A stretch of 64,000 nucleotides of DNA. It comes from a virus. Below, piece after piece: positions 2,873 to 14,643 of the stretch. Location: the IMG/VR virus record IMGVR_UViG_3300009008_000009, positions 62,001-126,000 of that record, one strand, 5' to 3'. Every line of letters starts with the position of its first letter. Positions within the stretch are counted from its first letter, which is position 1. Both the position numbers and the translations under genes were made by a program. The notes beneath the pieces are model-generated. The model had not been told where the DNA came from, did not search any database, and saw only the letters and a list, made by a program, of their open reading frames with translations.

Positions 2873-4912
2873 CTATAGTCTCACCCCACTCGGTAACGCC
2901 GTACCTCCCCCGCCACCTTCCTGTACAGAAGTCCCCTTAGTTATCTGTCGAATGAGGTCAGGTGACGCCATCCGAGGAACAGGACTAGACGCATTACCCG
3001 GGGCCGGTGGTGTTGGACTTGGTCCGGATGGAGTCGCTGCTACGTTCGAGAACGGGGCTGATGGAACTACCATCCCACCTGTAACACCCACCACCCGATT
3101 ATTGTCCTGCATTAGTCCACGGGACGCACGACGATTGGGCTCCTGCCCCACCAGCATCTTGACTACACCAACATGACTATCAGCCGAGTCCTGAAGGTGT
3201 AGTGGCTTCTTGATCGGTTTCTGCTTCGCACTACCCGTCCTGACTAAATTGACTAACTGAGCTGGCCCAATAGTCTCTGCAAGAAAGTCCATCCCACCAA
3301 TGTAGGTCTGTCTCTTTAATAAGTCGTAGTCGTCAAGGTTGATGTTGTGCTTCTCTGCGATGATCCCCTTACGTCGGAAGCGCTCAAGCAGTTCAGCGGA
3401 GTTCCACTGGTCAGCGCCAGCAGCAACCACCTTCACATACCCGGGAATGGTATCAACCATGATAGATTCAATGTTGCTAACAGAAACCTGCACGCCAAAC
3501 TTAGGATCGGGACGCCAAACCAGCTCGTCATCAATCACAACTACGTTAACCGATACAACCTCACCTGAGAATAACTTGATTGTTCGCTGCTCATAATGGG
3601 CGATCACCACCACCGCGTCACAGTACATCTCAGCGTTATCCAGCCACATCACCCGACGCACACTGAATCTTTCGTACTGGGTCTTTGCGGCACACCCGAT
3701 TATGCGCTTGCAAAGGTACTTTGTAACCTTGCCGTCAGGTGTTTGAACGTGGTCAATGTAGTCTTCGGTCCTGAACAACCGAGGTCGGAAGCTCGGGGAA
3801 TTGGGATCAGTAGACGAAATGTGCGAGTAAACGTGGTCCGGGTACTCAATCCAAGCGCCGGATGTCTTCGGTGGAATGCAGAGGTACTTGGTCATCGAGT
3901 CTTCAGGACGTTGTACAAAGTCCTCTCGGTACTCTACCGGAACCTCAATCCCTACGTTGTCAATCCCAAAGAAGGTGTCCAACCGTGGGTGCCGGAAAAC
4001 GAAGGTCTCTCCGGAGTATATGTGCATACCCTTCGACTGCCACGGGTAGGCCAGCGAAGCGACAACTCCAGCCCCTTCAGGAGTTTGAGACAACTTATAC
4101 AGGTCAAGAATTATGTCGCCCTCTTCCTGACGTGGGTAAGAGAACACCAGCCCCATACCTTTAAAGGTCTTAGTCTGTCGGGAAGTTACCGATGTACGGG
4201 CGGTGTTGAAGATGGCCCAGCCCTGCTCCAGCTCCTTGGCGCTGGTAAACCCAGATATCTCATCGAGGTTGAACAGAACCGGGTTGTACCCCTCCCAGCT
4301 TTCGTTCTCCGTCGTTTCCGCTAAGCAGTGAATGTTCTTCGGAAACTTGGCCTCGTCCTGCGTAACGACAACCTTTCCCCGGACCTTATTGCGACGCTTA
4401 ACCTTGCTGTGCCACTGCCCTTTATACGCAATATCAAACCGGTCTCGAAACCAGCGACTTCGCAGCAGCCAGTTACGGAAGTACGTGAAGAAGATCTCCT
4501 GCGCCTGTCGCCCCTTCTTGGCTACATTGATAATGTGAAGGGTAGATGCTGACTTGACGCCGAACAGATACTCCTGAGGAGATCGCATACATAGGAGAAC
4601 GTACACGACATAGAGTGAAATTCGGGAGGCGACCTCGTCCTTACCACCCCCCTTGCCGTACACCATAACCAAGATCGAATTCTCACGGGAAGGATCGAAC
4701 ATCTTCTTTGGATCGTTCCCGATGAGCAGTTCCGCGTCTTGGTACTGTCTGTCCGAAAGAGAGAAGGCGTCCAAGAACGCACCGGACTCACAAAACTCCC
4801 GGAACGTAACTGGGTCTTCCTCCCAGATCATAGAGTCCGCGCCGGTCTCAGCGGCGTGAACATCTGGGAATTGGAGTTGAGTTCGCCGTTCTATTTCTTC
4901 GAGTGCGGCCAT
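2873..4912 (-). CDS. terL: Terminase large subunit (packaging ATPase/nuclease)
   Basis: 679 residues. TerL pumps DNA into the prohead and cuts the concatemer. The ATPase half shows a Walker A loop (YGKGGGKDE, about residues 85-93), Walker B with catalytic acid (LFNLDEIS, about 213-220) and a coupling segment ending in SYPR. The second half looks like the RNase H-fold nuclease, with the typical run ADQWNSAELLERFRRKGI near residue 500. I could not assign the first catalytic aspartate of the nuclease with certainty. The last 70 residues are a Pro/Ser/Gly-rich tail ending in a Gly-rich run, unusual for TerL. The start overlaps the stop of the preceding gene by one base. Confidence 0.85.
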   Translation of the reverse strand: MAALEEIERRTQLQFPDVHAAETGADSMIWEEDPVTFREFCESGAFLDAFSLSDRQYQDAELLIGNDPKKMFDPSRENSILVMVYGKGGGKDEVASRISLYVVYVLLCMRSPQEYLFGVKSASTLHIINVAKKGRQAQEIFFTYFRNWLLRSRWFRDRFDIAYKGQWHSKVKRRNKVRGKVVVTQDEAKFPKNIHCLAETTENESWEGYNPVLFNLDEISGFTSAKELEQGWAIFNTARTSVTSRQTKTFKGMGLVFSYPRQEEGDIILDLYKLSQTPEGAGVVASLAYPWQSKGMHIYSGETFVFRHPRLDTFFGIDNVGIEVPVEYREDFVQRPEDSMTKYLCIPPKTSGAWIEYPDHVYSHISSTDPNSPSFRPRLFRTEDYIDHVQTPDGKVTKYLCKRIIGCAAKTQYERFSVRRVMWLDNAEMYCDAVVVIAHYEQRTIKLFSGEVVSVNVVVIDDELVWRPDPKFGVQVSVSNIESIMVDTIPGYVKVVAAGADQWNSAELLERFRRKGIIAEKHNINLDDYDLLKRQTYIGGMDFLAETIGPAQLVNLVRTGSAKQKPIKKPLHLQDSADSHVGVVKMLVGQEPNRRASRGLMQDNNRVVGVTGGMVVPSAPFSNVAATPSGPSPTPPAPGNASSPVPRMASPDLIRQITKGTSVQEGGGGGTALPSGVRL

Positions 4913-5598
4913 TAGGTTATCTTAGTAGTTGGAACACCAAAGTCGTGACCGATCTTCTTCCAGCCGTCTTTAAACCCCTGCAAAACACGCTGCTTATCCT
5001 CGTCGCGCAGGGCCGGGGTGAACTCTGAATATACTAACTCTACCACGGCCTGTAGCAAGTCACCCATACGTTCGCCGAAGTCGTGGGCCTTCTGGTACTC
5101 CTCAACATGCTCCCGGTACGCCCGAATCTCCTTAGTGAACTGGGTGATCTTCGGAGATAGACTGACCATTTGACGTGAAAGAACGATCCTGAGTTCTGGT
5201 TCGATATCCTCTGATGCCGCATCCTTCTTAAGACCTACCATCATCTCATCGAGTCCCTTCAAGTGGGACTCAAGGAGACGAATCATCTGGTTATTGTACT
5301 CAAGAGAATCGGCAACCTTACCAAATAACTCGGTGTCGTAAATGCCGGAAAGAACACCACCTTCCCCCTCCTGAGTTGTTTTCTCAATTGCCTGCCGTAC
5401 AATCTCAGGGTAGTAGTTCTGCATCCACGAACGAATTGTAGGGATCGAAAATGTAGCTTCTTTGCCAAAGCGAGAGATCAGCCGTTTCTGAATTTTACCG
5501 GGGGACATGCGTGGGTCACCAGAAAGCCAAATGGTAATGACCCCTGCGTGCCCAGAGTTTTGTATAGCTGCTCCATGCAGTTGCTTTGGACGTGGCAT
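4912..5598 (-). CDS. terS: Probable terminase small subunit
   Basis: 228 residues, directly upstream of and overlapping terL by one base, the usual terS position. An N-terminal region (residues about 18-70, with PGKIQKRLISRFG and IPTIRSWMQNYYP) reads as a helix-turn-helix that would bind the packaging site. The middle is long helical coiled coil, as in TerS oligomers. A short C-terminal part could contact TerL. The call depends on gene order plus this architecture; the sequence itself is not distinctive. Two bases separate it from the Rad50 C-terminal gene. Confidence 0.55.
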   Translation of the reverse strand: MPRPKQLHGAAIQNSGHAGVITIWLSGDPRMSPGKIQKRLISRFGKEATFSIPTIRSWMQNYYPEIVRQAIEKTTQEGEGGVLSGIYDTELFGKVADSLEYNNQMIRLLESHLKGLDEMMVGLKKDAASEDIEPELRIVLSRQMVSLSPKITQFTKEIRAYREHVEEYQKAHDFGERMGDLLQAVVELVYSEFTPALRDEDKQRVLQGFKDGWKKIGHDFGVPTTKIT

Positions 5599-5600
5599 TA

Positions 5601-6227
5601 TTAGTCTCGGTTTACAACGATGCCTCGTGACTTGAACTCCAGTACGTTATCCGCACTGTCGGCCAGTGGAGGTTCGTGAGATACGATGATCAGCTGGTCC
5701 AGCATGTCATTCGACAAACGCCGGGCCAGCTCGGCAGCACGGGGAAGATCCTCCGTGGCCACCTGACTGAATGGTTCGTCGAGTACAATTGGGCCTTGAA
5801 TGTCAAGCATCCGGAACAGGCAAACTCGTAATAGAAATGCGGCAATATCTACCATACCGCCGCCGATGGATTCAAACACTGGTCCGGGGGCGGGGTTACT
5901 ACCGTACATGAAGGCAAAGTGGACCTCGATACGGTCGCCCCGACGTTCGAACTCGGTCTGGAATCCAAGATTACCATCATCAAACACAGTCTGAAGTCCG
6001 GTCGTCACAATCTTATCTATCTGCTCTCGGACCATTTCACGAGCCTGTGTGGAAAGAGACTCGAGAATGACCAGTGCCATCTCGTCGACCTTGATCGACT
6101 TCTCGTACCCATCGCGACGGCTTTCAAGGTCATGGAGTTTTCTCACCCGTTCCTTGTGAGCACCAAGGTCAGTTAAATACCGGTCCCGGCTGTTCCTGTA
6201 GCTCCTGAGAATTGAGTCATGACTCAT
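5601..6227 (-). CDS. Rad50/SbcC C-terminal half (signature, Walker B, H-switch)
   Basis: 208 residues. It starts as coiled coil and then carries the C-lobe of an SMC/Rad50 ATPase: ABC signature region FESIGGGMVDIAAF (about residues 119-132), Walker B with catalytic Glu (GPIVLDEPFSQVA, about 144-156) and H-switch IIVSHE. There is no Walker A loop, so it cannot be an ATPase alone. The Walker A lobe is encoded at 7460-8593, with the Mre11-like gene between. It should pair with that lobe to form the head of a DNA-end-processing nuclease complex. It overlaps the 85-residue coiled-coil gene by 11 bases in another frame. GAGGAG lies 10 bases before ATG 6227. Confidence 0.8.
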   Translation of the reverse strand: MSHDSILRSYRNSRDRYLTDLGAHKERVRKLHDLESRRDGYEKSIKVDEMALVILESLSTQAREMVREQIDKIVTTGLQTVFDDGNLGFQTEFERRGDRIEVHFAFMYGSNPAPGPVFESIGGGMVDIAAFLLRVCLFRMLDIQGPIVLDEPFSQVATEDLPRAAELARRLSNDMLDQLIIVSHEPPLADSADNVLEFKSRGIVVNRD

Positions 6228-6474
6228 CGGAGCGGTACTCCTCTGGGATCTCAGCCTCGATTTCGTTCAGTAGTCGCTCGGCTTCACTCTCAGCGTTCTC
6301 AATAGCGGCTGGGAGATCTTTCACATTCGTAACTCCGAGCTTCTTAGCATCTTCGACCTTAACCTTCCTCTGCTCACGCAAAGTCCGAACGCGCTCTTCG
6401 GCGGCTGCGGTGTCTTTAGTAAGCTGGTCCCGTGTCTCCTTGAGATCTGCCAGCTTTTTGTCTGCTCCGTTCAT
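6217..6474 (-). CDS. Small coiled-coil protein, likely Rad50 descending-arm fragment
   Basis: 85 residues, almost entirely heptad-type charged coiled coil (KKLADLKETRDQL; AAAEERVRTLREQ; ENAESEAERLLNEIEAEI). It sits between the Mre11-like gene (ATGA overlap) and the Rad50 C-terminal half (11-base overlap, other frame). In a continuous Rad50 the zinc hook is followed by a descending coil; this piece and the first third of the next gene together would supply that coil. Whether it is made as a separate peptide, or joined to the next frame by ribosomal frameshifting or hidden by a sequencing indel, cannot be told here. Confidence 0.65.
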   Translation of the reverse strand: MNGADKKLADLKETRDQLTKDTAAAEERVRTLREQRKVKVEDAKKLGVTNVKDLPAAIENAESEAERLLNEIEAEIPEEYRSDES

Positions 6475-7463
6475 TGCGTCCCCTGTACACTTTGGATAAC
6501 CTTGGCAGCCCGAGAACGACCAGCCTCAAATAGATCTGGATCGTTGTCTCCATGTGGGAGCTGGGCGAGCATGTCCACCGGATCAAACTTCACACCTTGT
6601 TCAGTCTCGTTCTTGATGAAGTCCACCAACCTTCCTATCTGGTTCTCGTCGGGGGGCACGGGGGCTGCGTCATCGAAGAGATCCGATCCCGGAACAGCAA
6701 CGGGGCACTTCACAATGTCAATCCGAGGTGCTATGTCTCTACCATAGATCTCGATGTACGCTACTGATGGAATCCGACTCCGACTGTCCTTCGTACCCTT
6801 CAGCCGGGCCAGCGACCCGGGGTTACAAAATACAACTCCATCCCCCCGCGTGTAAACCCCGTACCCGGGGTGGTAATCACCTGAAAGAACGAGGTCTGCG
6901 TTGACATCAGCTTCTTCAAGTAACGTGTGGTCGAACCCATCTGGAAGCGAGTGTTCAACCAATGTCCCATGGGCAAGTACGATGTCATACGCTGCGTCGT
7001 CCTCGTGATCGATGAAGTACCGGCCACGGCCACCATCAAGCCCCGGTGAATGAGGAATGGAAGTTATACGAATATCGTCACCCACCCGGATGGACTCACC
7101 CCGACGAAGAATGATAGCTGTTTCCGACGCCATTAAAGAACCAAGCGCAGATCTCTGTAGGGTGGCTTCCTGATACCCATGTATATCGTGAGACCCAAAG
7201 GTACCAATAAGTGGAGTGTGCGCTGCAGTAAGCGGACGATATATCTGAAGCACGGCATTCACCATACCGTGTCCAACATCGTATGAGTCGAAGTGGTCCC
7301 CACCATGAAGTACAGCGTCAACCGCAAGCTCCGCCGCAAGTTCAACAACCCACCTCTGCTTAGCGAGAATTGTCTGGGGGAAGTTGTCCTTACGCCCAGA
7401 TGGTGATGACCCCCGGTTGTGGGTATCAGTAACAAATAGGGCACGGAGAATTGGATCGCTCAT
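6471..7463 (-). CDS. sbcD: SbcD/Mre11-like nuclease
   Basis: 330 residues from ATG 7463, chosen because it forms an ATGA overlap with the upstream stop and follows GGAGG. Calcineurin-like metallophosphoesterase motifs are in order: DTH (13-15), GGDHFDS (54-60), GSHD (90-93; the usual Asn is Ser), AHG, then SGDYHPGYG. The C-terminal part is the accessory domain that contacts Rad50 arms. With the split Rad50 genes on both sides it forms an Mre11-Rad50/SbcCD or T4 gp47/gp46-type complex that resects DNA ends and opens hairpins for recombination-dependent replication. It lies between the two halves of its partner. Confidence 0.85.
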   Translation of the reverse strand: MSDPILRALFVTDTHNRGSSPSGRKDNFPQTILAKQRWVVELAAELAVDAVLHGGDHFDSYDVGHGMVNAVLQIYRPLTAAHTPLIGTFGSHDIHGYQEATLQRSALGSLMASETAIILRRGESIRVGDDIRITSIPHSPGLDGGRGRYFIDHEDDAAYDIVLAHGTLVEHSLPDGFDHTLLEEADVNADLVLSGDYHPGYGVYTRGDGVVFCNPGSLARLKGTKDSRSRIPSVAYIEIYGRDIAPRIDIVKCPVAVPGSDLFDDAAPVPPDENQIGRLVDFIKNETEQGVKFDPVDMLAQLPHGDNDPDLFEAGRSRAAKVIQSVQGTQ

Positions 7464-8593
7464 TTTACCTCCGATCCGCAGTAGGGACAAGCTCCAAGTT
7501 CATGGAGAAGATCATCGTACTCTTCTTCGGCCTCGGAAAGCTCACTCCGAAGTCGGTCTACCTGTTTGTCAGCCTGCTTGATATCACTATCAACATCCGC
7601 AATCGCGGAAAGAGCAGTTAATTGATCTAACACGGTGATGGCCTGATCAACGAGATCAGCCTGAACTTCCATGTTAGACAACTTCAACTTCGTCTCTCGA
7701 ATGGAGTCGTTGATGTCTGAAAGGGAGTCGGACACCGCCGTGAGATCGATTACCTGTTGGATTGCCTCCTCAGCCTCGCCCCATGGAAGGTCAGAAACGG
7801 AGTGCAGCTCCTCCATCCGGGTCTTGGCTATCCGGCCATCGCGGTTAATGCGAGTCAGGTCTTCCCTGACCGACGTCAGTGACTTCACCCGGGATCGGAG
7901 ATCTCGAACCGCCGACACCTTAGAGTCTAGGACAGCAAACGTCTGCTTGAGCTCCAAGACCGGAAAGCGGTCAACCTGCTCACTGAGCTCCAGTGCCCCG
8001 GCGTTCAGGGTCTTCAAGTCCCGGTTCGTGTTAACCCGGTCCTTCGAAATCTGACGCATAGATTCAAGTACAGAGTCCAGTGAGATAGCAATGGAAAATA
8101 CCCGAGCAGCAACTGACCCCGGGCGGCTCATCAGGAACCCCTTATGGTTCTGCTGGTGCCCGAAGTTCATGTCAATGACGTCGTCCCGACCGGCCCCGAA
8201 AGACAGCACTGGACTGATGCCAATAACATCCATAACCTCAGCCGGAATGGTATTCCCAAACTTGGAAAACACCTGCTTATTGTCCGGGTCTTTTGAGGTT
8301 CGAACTATGTACTTATTCGACTTCAGCCGAGGCTTATCACCACTCGTACGCTCAACGACGCGAGTAACCTTGCCCCGTTTGGTAATAAGCATCACTCGGG
8401 TCTTTGTCTGCCCGTTTGCAATGTAGAACGTACCGGTGAATTCGTCACGGCACACAAGACGCAGAGCTCGAGTCAGTGCTGACTTACCATACCCATTACG
8501 CCCAATAACAACGTTCAACCCCGGAGTAAACCTCAGGGTGGCCTTTCGTATGGACTGGTAGTTCTCAATGACCGCCTTGCGAATGATTGTCAT
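7460..8593 (-). CDS. sbcC: Rad50/SbcC N-terminal half ending in the zinc hook
   Basis: 377 residues. N-terminal Rad50 lobe with AVIENYQSIRKATLRF and Walker A GRNGYGKS at 31-38, a Q-loop-like region near GHQQNHKGFLM, then about 200 residues of ascending coiled coil. It stops five residues after ACPYCG (Cys 369 and 372), the CxxC zinc hook that joins two Rad50 arms. The signature and Walker B half is missing here and is encoded at 5601-6227. The stop overlaps the Mre11-like start (ATGA). The exact end at the hook argues for real gene fission, not random truncation. Confidence 0.85.
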   Translation of the reverse strand: MTIIRKAVIENYQSIRKATLRFTPGLNVVIGRNGYGKSALTRALRLVCRDEFTGTFYIANGQTKTRVMLITKRGKVTRVVERTSGDKPRLKSNKYIVRTSKDPDNKQVFSKFGNTIPAEVMDVIGISPVLSFGAGRDDVIDMNFGHQQNHKGFLMSRPGSVAARVFSIAISLDSVLESMRQISKDRVNTNRDLKTLNAGALELSEQVDRFPVLELKQTFAVLDSKVSAVRDLRSRVKSLTSVREDLTRINRDGRIAKTRMEELHSVSDLPWGEAEEAIQQVIDLTAVSDSLSDINDSIRETKLKLSNMEVQADLVDQAITVLDQLTALSAIADVDSDIKQADKQVDRLRSELSEAEEEYDDLLHELGACPYCGSEVK

Positions 8594-9069
8594 AAGGTAT
8601 CCCCACGGAGAAGGGCCTCTCTGACACAGTGAAAGTGGTAAAGCCCGATAAAGAATGCGTCCTGCACGTGCTCGGTGACGTCCTTGCGCTTTCTTGCCTG
8701 CTTCGCAAACGCAATGGAAATAGAGTCGCGGGACGGGTCACCATGTCCAACTGCCCACTTACGTACAACCTGAATGCCGTAAGGGAAAAGACGAATGTTC
8801 AAGTTATTCATCTCTTGCTTTATGGCACCAGTATTCTCGTGCAGATTGGTTCCACCCTTACCACCCGCTGCATATGCATAGTCTTCGAACGCTACCTCCT
8901 TCACGTCGAAGACAGCGGCAATCGTGCCAATGACCCCGGCGTTGTAGGCAATGCGCTTCACAGGGTGAGTAAGGCCAGCGGGCGGAGACACCGTGGTCCA
9001 GTAGACCAACTCGTCCTCCGCCCGAAACACGCACACTCCGGTGTTGCGAAGTGCTATGTCAAGGCTCAT
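8590..9069 (-). CDS. RuvC-like Holliday junction resolvase
   Basis: 159 residues from ATG 9069; an in-frame TTG three codons upstream is an alternative. RNase H-fold resolvase pattern: SLDIALRNTG (Asp 4), VAFEDYAYAAGG (Glu 62), and DVTEHVQDAFFIGLYH with Asp 130 and Asp 137. These acids would bind two magnesium ions and cut branched DNA, resolving recombination intermediates before packaging. It sits between the SSB-like gene and the Rad50 genes in one operon, overlapping the Rad50 start by four bases. It is closer to phage and poxvirus-type short resolvases than to cellular RuvC. Confidence 0.75.
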   Translation of the reverse strand: MSLDIALRNTGVCVFRAEDELVYWTTVSPPAGLTHPVKRIAYNAGVIGTIAAVFDVKEVAFEDYAYAAGGKGGTNLHENTGAIKQEMNNLNIRLFPYGIQVVRKWAVGHGDPSRDSISIAFAKQARKRKDVTEHVQDAFFIGLYHFHCVREALLRGDTL

Positions 9070-9081
9070 GACGATCAAGGA

Positions 9082-12084: not shown

Positions 12085-14643
12085 TCACGCAGCAATTTTG
12101 TACTTCTCAAACTCACCCCATCGATACCCAACTTCCATGTCGATCTTTAACTTGACATTGAAATCGGCAAATGGTGGAGCCAGTGCGATGTCGTTAACCA
12201 GTATGGCAACTTCATGGAGATGTTCTTCTGCGACCTCAACGATAACACTATCATGCACGGTAAGCACTGGCATTGATCCGAGCATTGATCTAGTGGCTCG
12301 GTCGTAGGGCTTAAGATACCCCTCACGTTCAAGTGCTGCCATGATCTGGTAGATCTTCATGTTGGTGATGTGTGCAGCCGCACCCTGAATCGGTGAGTTG
12401 ACTGCCTGCCTGTGCGCACGCCCGACCAGCCCCTTCTCACCCGCGTAAGGAATACGGCGTGGGCGACCAAACATAGAGAATACGATCTTGTTCTCGTCGG
12501 CTGTCTCTTGGGTAAGCTCAATCCACTGTGCTGCCTTCTTGAACTTCTCGAAGTACTTAGTCTGAAAGTCCTTCATGAGCTCAATCGGCAAGTGGTACAT
12601 CTTAGCTGCGGCCTCAGCACTTCCACCGTAAATCACAAGGAAGGTCACCGACTTAGCTGCTGTACGGAGATCAACTACCTCCTCAACCTCGTCCAGATAC
12701 TTCCGAAGAGTGTCATCGTAGTCAAGCTCAAACACCTGAACGGCGGTACTGAGATGGACATCCTCTGAGTCGCAGGCATAGGCCAGTGCGTCGTCCTGCG
12801 AGTCGTAGGCAAGGGTACGGACTTCCATCTGACTGAAGTCAAAGTACAGGAGTACGTAGCCCTTCTTCGCAATGAATACTCCCTTGACCTTCTTACCCCA
12901 GTACTTCTGAGCTTCGCTTTTCTTACCACCACCCCCGGGGATGTTCTGGAGGTTCGGGTTTGCGCTGGCCAGACGCCAAGTAACCGTCCGGGCCTGCATG
13001 TACGACCCGTGAATACGACCGTCCACCTGCCCACGATAGATGGGGGTGGCGTAGGTCGACAGCAGCTTGGACACCGTGCGCAGGGAAAGTACGAGAGACG
13101 CAACCCGTGAAGTGTCTGTGATAACCTCTAGATGATTCTTGTCCGTCTTGTACTTGGGACGGCCACGGGCGTCGGTCACAACGTTCCCGTTGAAGTCCTC
13201 CTCGTGCAGCAACTCCATGTCAACACCCTCCTCACGGAGGGCGTCAATGATCTCCTGCTTGCTGTCCGGATTTACTGTCCGACCGAACTCGCGTCGCATC
13301 TGCAACGTCAGCTTCTCTTCCTCAGCCTCTAGATCTTTGATCAACTGTGGGAGGAGACTGACATCAACCTCGGCACCCCGGATTTCCATCTTGGTGAGTG
13401 CGTCGTTGAGCAGCATGTCATGGCGTCGTAGCTTCTTGTACTCAGGAACAGTTCGAGATAGGTATCGGTCGTGCAACCGGGCGATCCGGTGCGTTGTGTC
13501 GGTGTCTGTACTCGCGTACTCAGAGATAACCGGAAGTGGGTGGGCTGCCATGTCACGGTACCCCTCACCCTCCCCTTTAATCATCTTCTTGAATCCACGG
13601 AACTGTGGAAGGTACAGGTCAACCTGAGCATCAAGTGCGTGGGACTTCTGATTCTCGTCTCTGAGGTGTGCTGCGATCAACGTATCCATCTTAATGTTCT
13701 TGATCTGGATACCGTAATCGAACCACAAGATCTCAGCGTCATATTTGATGTTCTGGTTGATCTTGGGAATGGAACTCTCGCAAAGCTCGCGGAGCAGCTC
13801 AAGTATGTAATCCTGATCCTTCTTCCAGAAGTCACGCAGCTTACGAGACATGACCGGACGGATGCGAAGTGGTAGATAGGCTGCCCGACCCTCCTTCCAG
13901 CTGAACGAGATGCCGAGAATCTTGTCCTTGAGGACGTTCGGTCGATCTGCGTTTGGATCGTGGTTCTGAGCTTCGACATCGAGAACCAGTCGCTTGGCCT
14001 TCTTGATACCCCTGAAAAACTTCACTGCCTTTTTCTTAGTGTCAAGGGTATAGTACTTTCGATCTATGAGTCGTTCGCCGGTAGCCAAGCGCTTACCCAT
14101 ACGAAAGTCCTCAACCATTCGTTGGCGGTTCGCTGGGTTTCTACCGGGGAGACAGCCTGCTGGGTGGTAAGTTGGAATAACAATGAACTCGTGCCCATCA
14201 ATTTCACACTTGATCGGAGTACCGCGCATCTCCTTGACCGCCCGGGACTTCCCGGTCAGCATCTTGATGGCGGTAAACCCCATCGCTACCACAACCTTCG
14301 GTTTGAGTCGAGCTATCTCCGGAAAAAGGAACTCGTCCGGGCAGATGCTCAGTGCTTCAACCGCGTCAGGGTGCTTGATCTTGTTGTTCGGTGGGCGACA
14401 TCGGAGTACATTGAGAACTGTTGCCTTGCGACGTGGGATACCAATCTCATCCAGCGCTGGGTCGAATACAGTGGTGCCCGCAGCCCCAACAAATGGGATG
14501 CCTTTTTTATCCTCATCCTTTCCGGGGGCTTCCCCAACAAAGATGAGATCAACGAGATGTGGTTTGCGCGGACCTGATCCTACAACGACCTGCGTAACCT
14601 GATCAGCAAGGGGGCAGTTGTCACATGGATTTGTTCTGCTCAT
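12085..14643 (-). CDS. polA: Uracil-DNA glycosylase / family A DNA polymerase fusion
   Basis: 852 residues. Residues 1-180 form a family 4-type uracil-DNA glycosylase: iron-sulfur cysteines 7, 10, 82 and 101, motif GEAPGKDEDKKGIPFVG (37-53) and HPAG (160-163). A DEDDy-type 3'-5' exonuclease follows, with DVE (222-224), NIKYD (298-302) and YASTD (376-380). The polymerase domain has motif A DFSQMEVR (Asp 602), motif B RTAAK...IYGG (660-674) and motif C VHDSV (His 797, Asp 798). It is the replicative polymerase. N-terminal UDG-like domains on phage PolA enzymes are known, for example in SPO1-type phages. The glycosylase cysteines and active motif look intact, so uracil recognition may be functional. 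Confidence 0.92.
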   Translation of the reverse strand: MSRTNPCDNCPLADQVTQVVVGSGPRKPHLVDLIFVGEAPGKDEDKKGIPFVGAAGTTVFDPALDEIGIPRRKATVLNVLRCRPPNNKIKHPDAVEALSICPDEFLFPEIARLKPKVVVAMGFTAIKMLTGKSRAVKEMRGTPIKCEIDGHEFIVIPTYHPAGCLPGRNPANRQRMVEDFRMGKRLATGERLIDRKYYTLDTKKKAVKFFRGIKKAKRLVLDVEAQNHDPNADRPNVLKDKILGISFSWKEGRAAYLPLRIRPVMSRKLRDFWKKDQDYILELLRELCESSIPKINQNIKYDAEILWFDYGIQIKNIKMDTLIAAHLRDENQKSHALDAQVDLYLPQFRGFKKMIKGEGEGYRDMAAHPLPVISEYASTDTDTTHRIARLHDRYLSRTVPEYKKLRRHDMLLNDALTKMEIRGAEVDVSLLPQLIKDLEAEEEKLTLQMRREFGRTVNPDSKQEIIDALREEGVDMELLHEEDFNGNVVTDARGRPKYKTDKNHLEVITDTSRVASLVLSLRTVSKLLSTYATPIYRGQVDGRIHGSYMQARTVTWRLASANPNLQNIPGGGGKKSEAQKYWGKKVKGVFIAKKGYVLLYFDFSQMEVRTLAYDSQDDALAYACDSEDVHLSTAVQVFELDYDDTLRKYLDEVEEVVDLRTAAKSVTFLVIYGGSAEAAAKMYHLPIELMKDFQTKYFEKFKKAAQWIELTQETADENKIVFSMFGRPRRIPYAGEKGLVGRAHRQAVNSPIQGAAAHITNMKIYQIMAALEREGYLKPYDRATRSMLGSMPVLTVHDSVIVEVAEEHLHEVAILVNDIALAPPFADFNVKLKIDMEVGYRWGEFEKYKIAA

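Follow-up and report, generated by a model that had tools for sequence, protein, structure and literature searches.

In the textbook picture Rad50 is a single chain that extends along one arm to a hook and comes back along a second, and to our knowledge it has always been described as one long chain. Fusions of Mre11 with Rad50 have been reported in viruses and Firmicutes (PMC3175470), in a paper from which the word "split" is absent. PMC7824862 describes single-chain gp46/gp47 proteins and the near-universal presence of SbcC and SbcD in jumbo phages; the passages located in it report splits of other enzymes, none of them of SbcC. No description of a split Rad50 was found in the open-access literature, subscription papers being outside the scope of that search.

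The DNA analysed here, hereafter the window, is a stretch of 64,000 nucleotides from a 127.7-kb viral record of IMG/VR (IMGVR_UViG_3300009008_000009); it has a GC content of 52% and no tRNA genes. Four coupled genes in it, all on the minus strand (Table 1), encode the two halves of a Rad50/SbcC protein, an Mre11/SbcD-like nuclease and a small helical protein. It is likely, in our judgement, that the set is a naturally split Mre11-Rad50 complex of the SbcCD/gp46-gp47 type, used for DNA-end processing and recombination. Split Rad50 is a widespread family, undescribed in the open-access literature searched.

The four-gene locus and its motifs

The original prediction described a Rad50 divided just behind its hook, and its account of the layout was accurate throughout. 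The N-half does stop five residues past CPYC (residues 369-372, then GSEVK and the stop codon), the C-half is a separate gene starting about 1.2 kb beyond the N-half end, the Mre11-like gene and the 85-residue gene lie between them, and the starts are coupled, through ATGA overlaps at three junctions (RuvC-like/N-half, N-half/Mre11 and Mre11/small protein) and an 11-nt overlap between small protein and C-half. For the Mre11-like ORF, a listed TTG start at 7490 gives a longer frame than the ATG start. The locus is flanked on one side by the RuvC-like resolvase and a UvsX/RecA-like recombinase and on the other by a gene pair that includes the terminase large subunit. HMMs made from bacterial relatives alone matched exactly these four of the 394 window ORFs (E-values of 2e-53 for the N-half, 5e-59 for Mre11, 4e-9 for the small protein and 2e-35 for the C-half), and in the whole 127.7-kb record the N-half gene was the sole match to AAA_23, the Rad50-type Walker A family.

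Table 1. Positions of the genes discussed, in the window and in related loci
Feature	Source	Position	Strand	Properties
RuvC-like Holliday junction resolvase, start of coupled run	window	8590..9078	(-)	phrog_159 3.2e-16
Rad50/SbcC N-half	window	8593-7460	(-)	377 aa; Walker A GRNGYGKS; AAA_23 1.5e-11
Mre11/SbcD-like nuclease	window	7463-6471	(-)	330 aa from ATG; Metallophos 4e-8
Small helical-hairpin (coiled-coil) protein	window	6474-6217	(-)	85 aa; bacterial HMM 3.8e-9
Rad50/SbcC C-half	window	6227-5601	(-)	208 aa; phrog_15167 3e-23
UDG domain fused to N-terminus of family A DNA polymerase that also has a 3'-5' exonuclease	window	12085-14643	(-)	Pfam UDG 1.2e-22, DNA_pol_A 1.1e-67
Terminase large subunit	window	2876-4912	(-)	~24% identity to best matches
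Mre11-lobe I-lobe II fusion	L118 (G058:C6:150000-159000)	4652-6754	(-)	700 aa; without arm or hook
N-half relative	L037	9989-11074		no CxxC at end
Arm and hook-bearing piece	L099	7974-9098 and 9095-9433		hook-bearing piece 112 aa; 4-nt overlap
AP2-domain gene (gp33)	L002, Bacillus phage vB_BboS-125	6416-6988		between N-half and small protein

Elsewhere in the window, a uracil-DNA glycosylase-type (UDG) domain is joined to a DNA polymerase, and the best matches of the terminase large subunit are in Streptomyces phages, with Gordonia phages the next largest group.

The N-half comprises ABC lobe I with its Walker A motif and Q-loop, an arm, and the CPYC zinc hook at a C-terminus that reads ...GACPYCGSEVK. 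Across an alignment of 43 N-half sequences G31, G36, K37, C369 and C372 are invariant and Q147 is nearly so. The profile of these 43 sequences matched Rad50 in the PDB (3e-16), and its C-terminal end matched the P. furiosus zinc-hook fragment (6zff; 1.5e-4); for the N-half of the window, AF2 gave a model (pLDDT 79) whose top Foldseek match was Rad50. Zinc binding by the terminal CxxC is inferred from the sequences. The C-half has a coil of ~48 residues, a signature-like motif (SIGGG), a Walker B motif (IVLDEP), the D-loop and the H-loop (SHE); D150 and E151 are invariant and H184 is present in most relatives. A scan with the window C-half sequence alone gave no matches; the profile of 27 C-halves matched the Rad50 lobe II chain 3qkr_B in the PDB at 2.2e-18, and in several Rad50 chains the match takes in the coil just ahead of lobe II. 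Throughout the family the signature reads xGGG, compared with LSGGE for canonical SbcC in the same comparison. A 440-aa C-half frame at L052 was considered as a fusion and rejected, its first 230 residues being an arginine/glycine-rich read-through with no Pfam match.

The Mre11 partner, whose gene is a neighbour of the Rad50 halves in the window, as at most loci, was recognised through a profile of 30 sequences that matched P. furiosus Mre11 in the PDB at 1.2e-16. Within the five phosphoesterase motifs, residues D13, H15, D56, H92, D93, H165 and H198 are retained. The window protein has GSHD in place of GNHD and GDYH in place of GHxH and may therefore differ in metal chemistry; the D also occurs in several relatives.

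The two halves could instead be separate proteins of ATPase descent that have taken on new roles, such as that of a clamp or a recombinase accessory, and no longer form a joint ABC head. Such an origin would suit the atypical signature, the separate names that the halves carry in PHROGs, and the distance between them in the phages Magritte and Tunturi_5. We hold it to be very improbable, as the motifs needed for one composite site are all kept across the two chains (the N-half contributes Walker A and the Q-loop, the C-half the signature, Walker B and the H-loop), both halves co-occur with Mre11, and genomes with the split set tend to be without single-chain SbcC.

Distribution and phylogeny of split loci

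The arrangement is not unique to this phage: an N-half scan gave 52 loci in IMG/VR and 44 in bacterial genomes, with all four genes together at 26 viral and 36 cellular loci. Almost all complete N-halves end in CxxC; at the 83 tabulated N-half loci the motif is separated from the C-terminus by 2-36 residues, with a median of 13. N-halves at L031 and L036 also end in CxxC, and an N-half relative at L037 does not. For viral loci at which an N-half alone was seen, a search of the full record brought up the C-half and, in most cases, the small protein too. In all records that are complete enough, the C-half has a gene of its own, sometimes tens of kb off and usually accompanied by the small protein; the records without it are one 9-kb fragment and one in which the N-half lies near the contig end. 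A DNA-level search of phages found no relatives.

The window's gene order was looked for in other phages and found, for example in Microcystis phage Mvi-JY20. Viral loci mostly have the order NTD-MRE-CC-CTD, which is the commonest and is also that of L031, or NTD-CC-CTD-MRE, whereas bacteria have MRE-NTD-CC-CTD at 34 of their 36 loci. In Bacillus phage vB_BboS-125 the N-half is gp32, ending in CPLC..., gp34 and gp35 follow, and Mre11 lies unannotated downstream; the AP2-domain gene gp33 of this phage is possibly a mobile-gene-like insertion. Microbacterium phage Magritte has its N-half at 93.8 kb, its small protein at 127.2 kb and its C-half at 0.3 kb. Its gp4 and gp247, annotated as ASCE ATPase, were tried as the N-half and rejected; the pair is a clamp loader and a sliding clamp, the latter identified by reading the sequence. 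Tunturiibacter phage Tunturi_5 likewise has both N-half and C-half, far apart, with no small protein detected, and both halves also occur in an uncultured phage of 485 kb. Split sets also occur in contigs labelled Ignavibacteriales (L088) and Planctomycetaceae (L105), which are probably phage because both branch among viral sequences.

In a tree of concatenated lobes, 61 split members and the armless fusion L118 formed one clade (SH-aLRT 100), with the window in a ten-member viral subclade (96) and L118 nested inside the bacterial split clade. The single-chain set comprised eight sequences (four SbcC, T4 gp46 and three single-chain phage proteins), which is thin sampling; the tree also has long branches and came from a quick search, and its split members had been collected by searching with split queries. 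The L118 gene adjoins an addB-like gene.

A chromosomal version of the operon is found in Finegoldia, Peptoniphilus, Caloramator and Alkalihalobacillus, set in housekeeping DNA. Its neighbours, named by reading translated sequences, include pgsA and, in several genomes, cinA/recA on the upstream side and an rny-like gene on the downstream side. The bacterial split operon is under purifying selection, with dN/dS of 0.03-0.32 across all four genes in bacterial pairs.

None of 14 split-operon genomes had an SbcC above the TIGR00618 cut-off, a weak test alone, which only 1 of 14 control genomes passed; PF13558 matches 12 of the 14 controls. Strong PF13558 matches in split genomes were weighed as canonical SbcC and rejected, as they read as JetC-like or as 1350-aa TIGR02680-like proteins; the two found in the 14 genomes are 1350-1400-aa proteins of another kind. 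A broader count used 299 genomes from the phylum of the Finegoldia genome, in which split carriers were defined by a C-half at E < 1e-45 (n=47). Single-chain SbcC was present in 2-3 of the 47 split genomes vs 81-131 of the 252 others (Fisher p 2.5e-5 or smaller, without correction for phylogeny), the PF13558 class boundaries having been chosen before representatives were checked. By this count the split set tends to take the place of single-chain SbcC in Bacillota.

These comparisons bear on whether the break could have arisen from a single-chain Rad50 gene by decay, frameshift or faulty assembly. Broken N-half frames do occur in the draft genomes L080 and L099, but what separates the halves is another gene, be it Mre11, an AP2-domain gene or a clamp, or a distance of tens of kb; the break falls at the same point in independent records, the starts are coupled and the genes are under purifying selection. 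The chance that this reading is right seems to us negligible, and at the level of the family the sequence comparisons refute it. At L099 the arm and the hook-bearing piece are in separate overlapping frames, which reflects either an additional split or a frameshift in the draft genome. That the locus encodes a working split complex, as originally proposed, gains comparative though not biochemical support from the recurrent break behind the hook in divergent phages and bacterial chromosomes, the retained catalytic motifs, the low dN/dS in bacterial pairs and the single clade.

Arm, small protein and proposed assembly

It had been expected that a hook at a chain end would leave the descending arm as a separate polypeptide, an expectation that the sizes of the chains do not support. 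The hook lies at residue 287 to 509 across N-halves, and the arms range from ~120 to 340 residues. The small protein is 77-94 aa across the family and shows no growth with arm length (rho -0.27), the C-half is near-constant in size with only slight change as the arm lengthens, and small protein and C-half coil together amount to ~130 residues, nearly constant. Because these sizes hardly change and the arm varies by more than 200 residues, it is unlikely that the small protein is no more than the missing descending arm.

The three chains might still rebuild a classical Rad50, small protein and C-half coil forming a descending strand along the N-half arm. The small protein is helical, its gene adjoins that of the C-half in most loci, the shortest arms (~120 residues) are close in length to small protein plus C-half coil, and where the arm is missing, in the genome of the armless and hookless L118 fusion, no small protein was detected. 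This arrangement is nonetheless hard to reconcile with a small protein whose length does not follow the hook position, with an AF2 model of the 85-aa protein (pLDDT 87) that is a hairpin (helices 3-45 and 51-75), not a single long helix, and with a profile that found no match to the descending arms of single-chain SbcC or T4 gp46. The small protein also evolves like the heads and unlike the arm: its conservation (0.74) is at the level of lobe I (0.78), lobe II (0.80) and Mre11 and well above that of the arm (0.42-0.55) and the C-half coil. The dN/dS of the small protein is 0.025-0.07 in bacterial pairs. Length covariation, profile search and conservation thus disfavour a detached piece of descending arm, and we regard the rebuilt classical form as unlikely; a place for the small protein in a short descending strand remains possible, above all in the shortest members. 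It had no match above family cut-off among named families. Its head-like conservation suggests a head or neck subunit, a placement inferred also from its constant size and its absence with the armless L118 fusion.

The Bacillota N-half arm is a tandem 47-residue repeat (self-HMM alignment 4e-17). Its hydrophobic autocorrelation is 0.74, 0.69 and 0.67 at lags of 47, 94 and 141, where canonical SbcC controls are near zero, and hook positions rise by about one repeat (414, 460, 508). The repeat is found in Bacillota and some phages; in the window's own arm the period is weak or absent, not clear.

We propose that N-half and C-half would pair in trans to give one ABC ATPase head, that two composite heads with two Mre11 would form the nuclease module, and that zinc at the terminal hooks would join two N-half arms. 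The arm would be made by the N-half alone, from the 47-residue repeats in Bacillota, and the chain may be able to end at the hook because such an arm needs no matching descending strand. The small protein would most likely sit at the heads or neck, tying the two half-ATPases together where no peptide links them. Structure prediction covered single chains only, no complex, and there are no biochemical data: we infer the assembly, the binding of zinc, a nuclease driven by ATP, the site of the small protein and self-pairing of the arm, and likewise ATP-dependent endo/exonuclease activity and end tethering by the split set.

One variant of this proposal, not exclusive with it, has the arms of two N-halves pairing with each other in the dimer as a homotypic rod, not folding on themselves. 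It would explain the partner-free variation in length equally well, and AF2 predicts long helices in the window arm (211-266 and 296-366), although confidence in the mid-arm is low and the 20+27 sub-period of the Bacillota repeat fits a two-helix unit; we treat the rod as possible but doubtful. For the family as a whole we lean, with only slight preference, towards an ancient three-chain Rad50 that takes the place of SbcCD as the main Mre11-Rad50 in many Bacillota and also circulates in phages, with half-ATPases acting in trans, a self-supporting arm of 47-residue repeats that has a zinc hook at its end, and a small head subunit of its own.

A hook at a chain end lets the need for a descending arm, signalling from hook to ATPase and the pairing of half-ATPases be asked about separately. 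Genomes scored as lacking SbcC may hold an overlooked equivalent beside recA.

Comparison with known systems

In PHROGs the N-half of vB_BboS-125 belongs to phrog_16465 ("exonuclease"), its C-half to phrog_15167 ("ATPase") and its small protein to phrog_18563 (unknown), without recognition that these are pieces of one Rad50; the phage proteins named "exonuclease" and "ATPase" would be two halves of one enzyme. Lobe I, lobe II, the CxxC hook and an Mre11 recognisable by profile are shared with Mre11-Rad50/SbcCD, which has one chain with the hook in mid-chain, whereas the split set has two halves, a third protein and a terminal hook. It also differs from Rad50 in its xGGG signature and in an arm whose length is unmatched by a descending strand. 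SMC, JetC and TIGR02680-type ATPases have a hinge and other partners, in contrast to the hook CxxC and Mre11 partner of the split set; in some genomes that carry it, JetC-like and 1350-aa relatives are encoded by genes of their own.

Among phage proteins, T4 gp46 is a chain of 560 aa with CxxC at 288, and those of PMBT3, SHOU24 and L061 are likewise single chains with a central CxxC, all outside the split clade. With T4 gp46/gp47 the split set shares a role in phage recombination and, in LR745208, Magritte and Tunturi_5, a location near genes for a sliding clamp or a clamp loader, as T4 has. Mre11-Rad50 fusions of the Mimivirus R555 type rearrange the same two enzymes by the opposite event, fusion (PMC3175470). 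A precedent is the engineered catalytic domain of P. furiosus Rad50 (1f2t, 1ii8, 3qkr), which was crystallised with its N and C segments as two chains that form one ABC head; unlike the split set it is man-made and without the hook, the long arm or a third protein.
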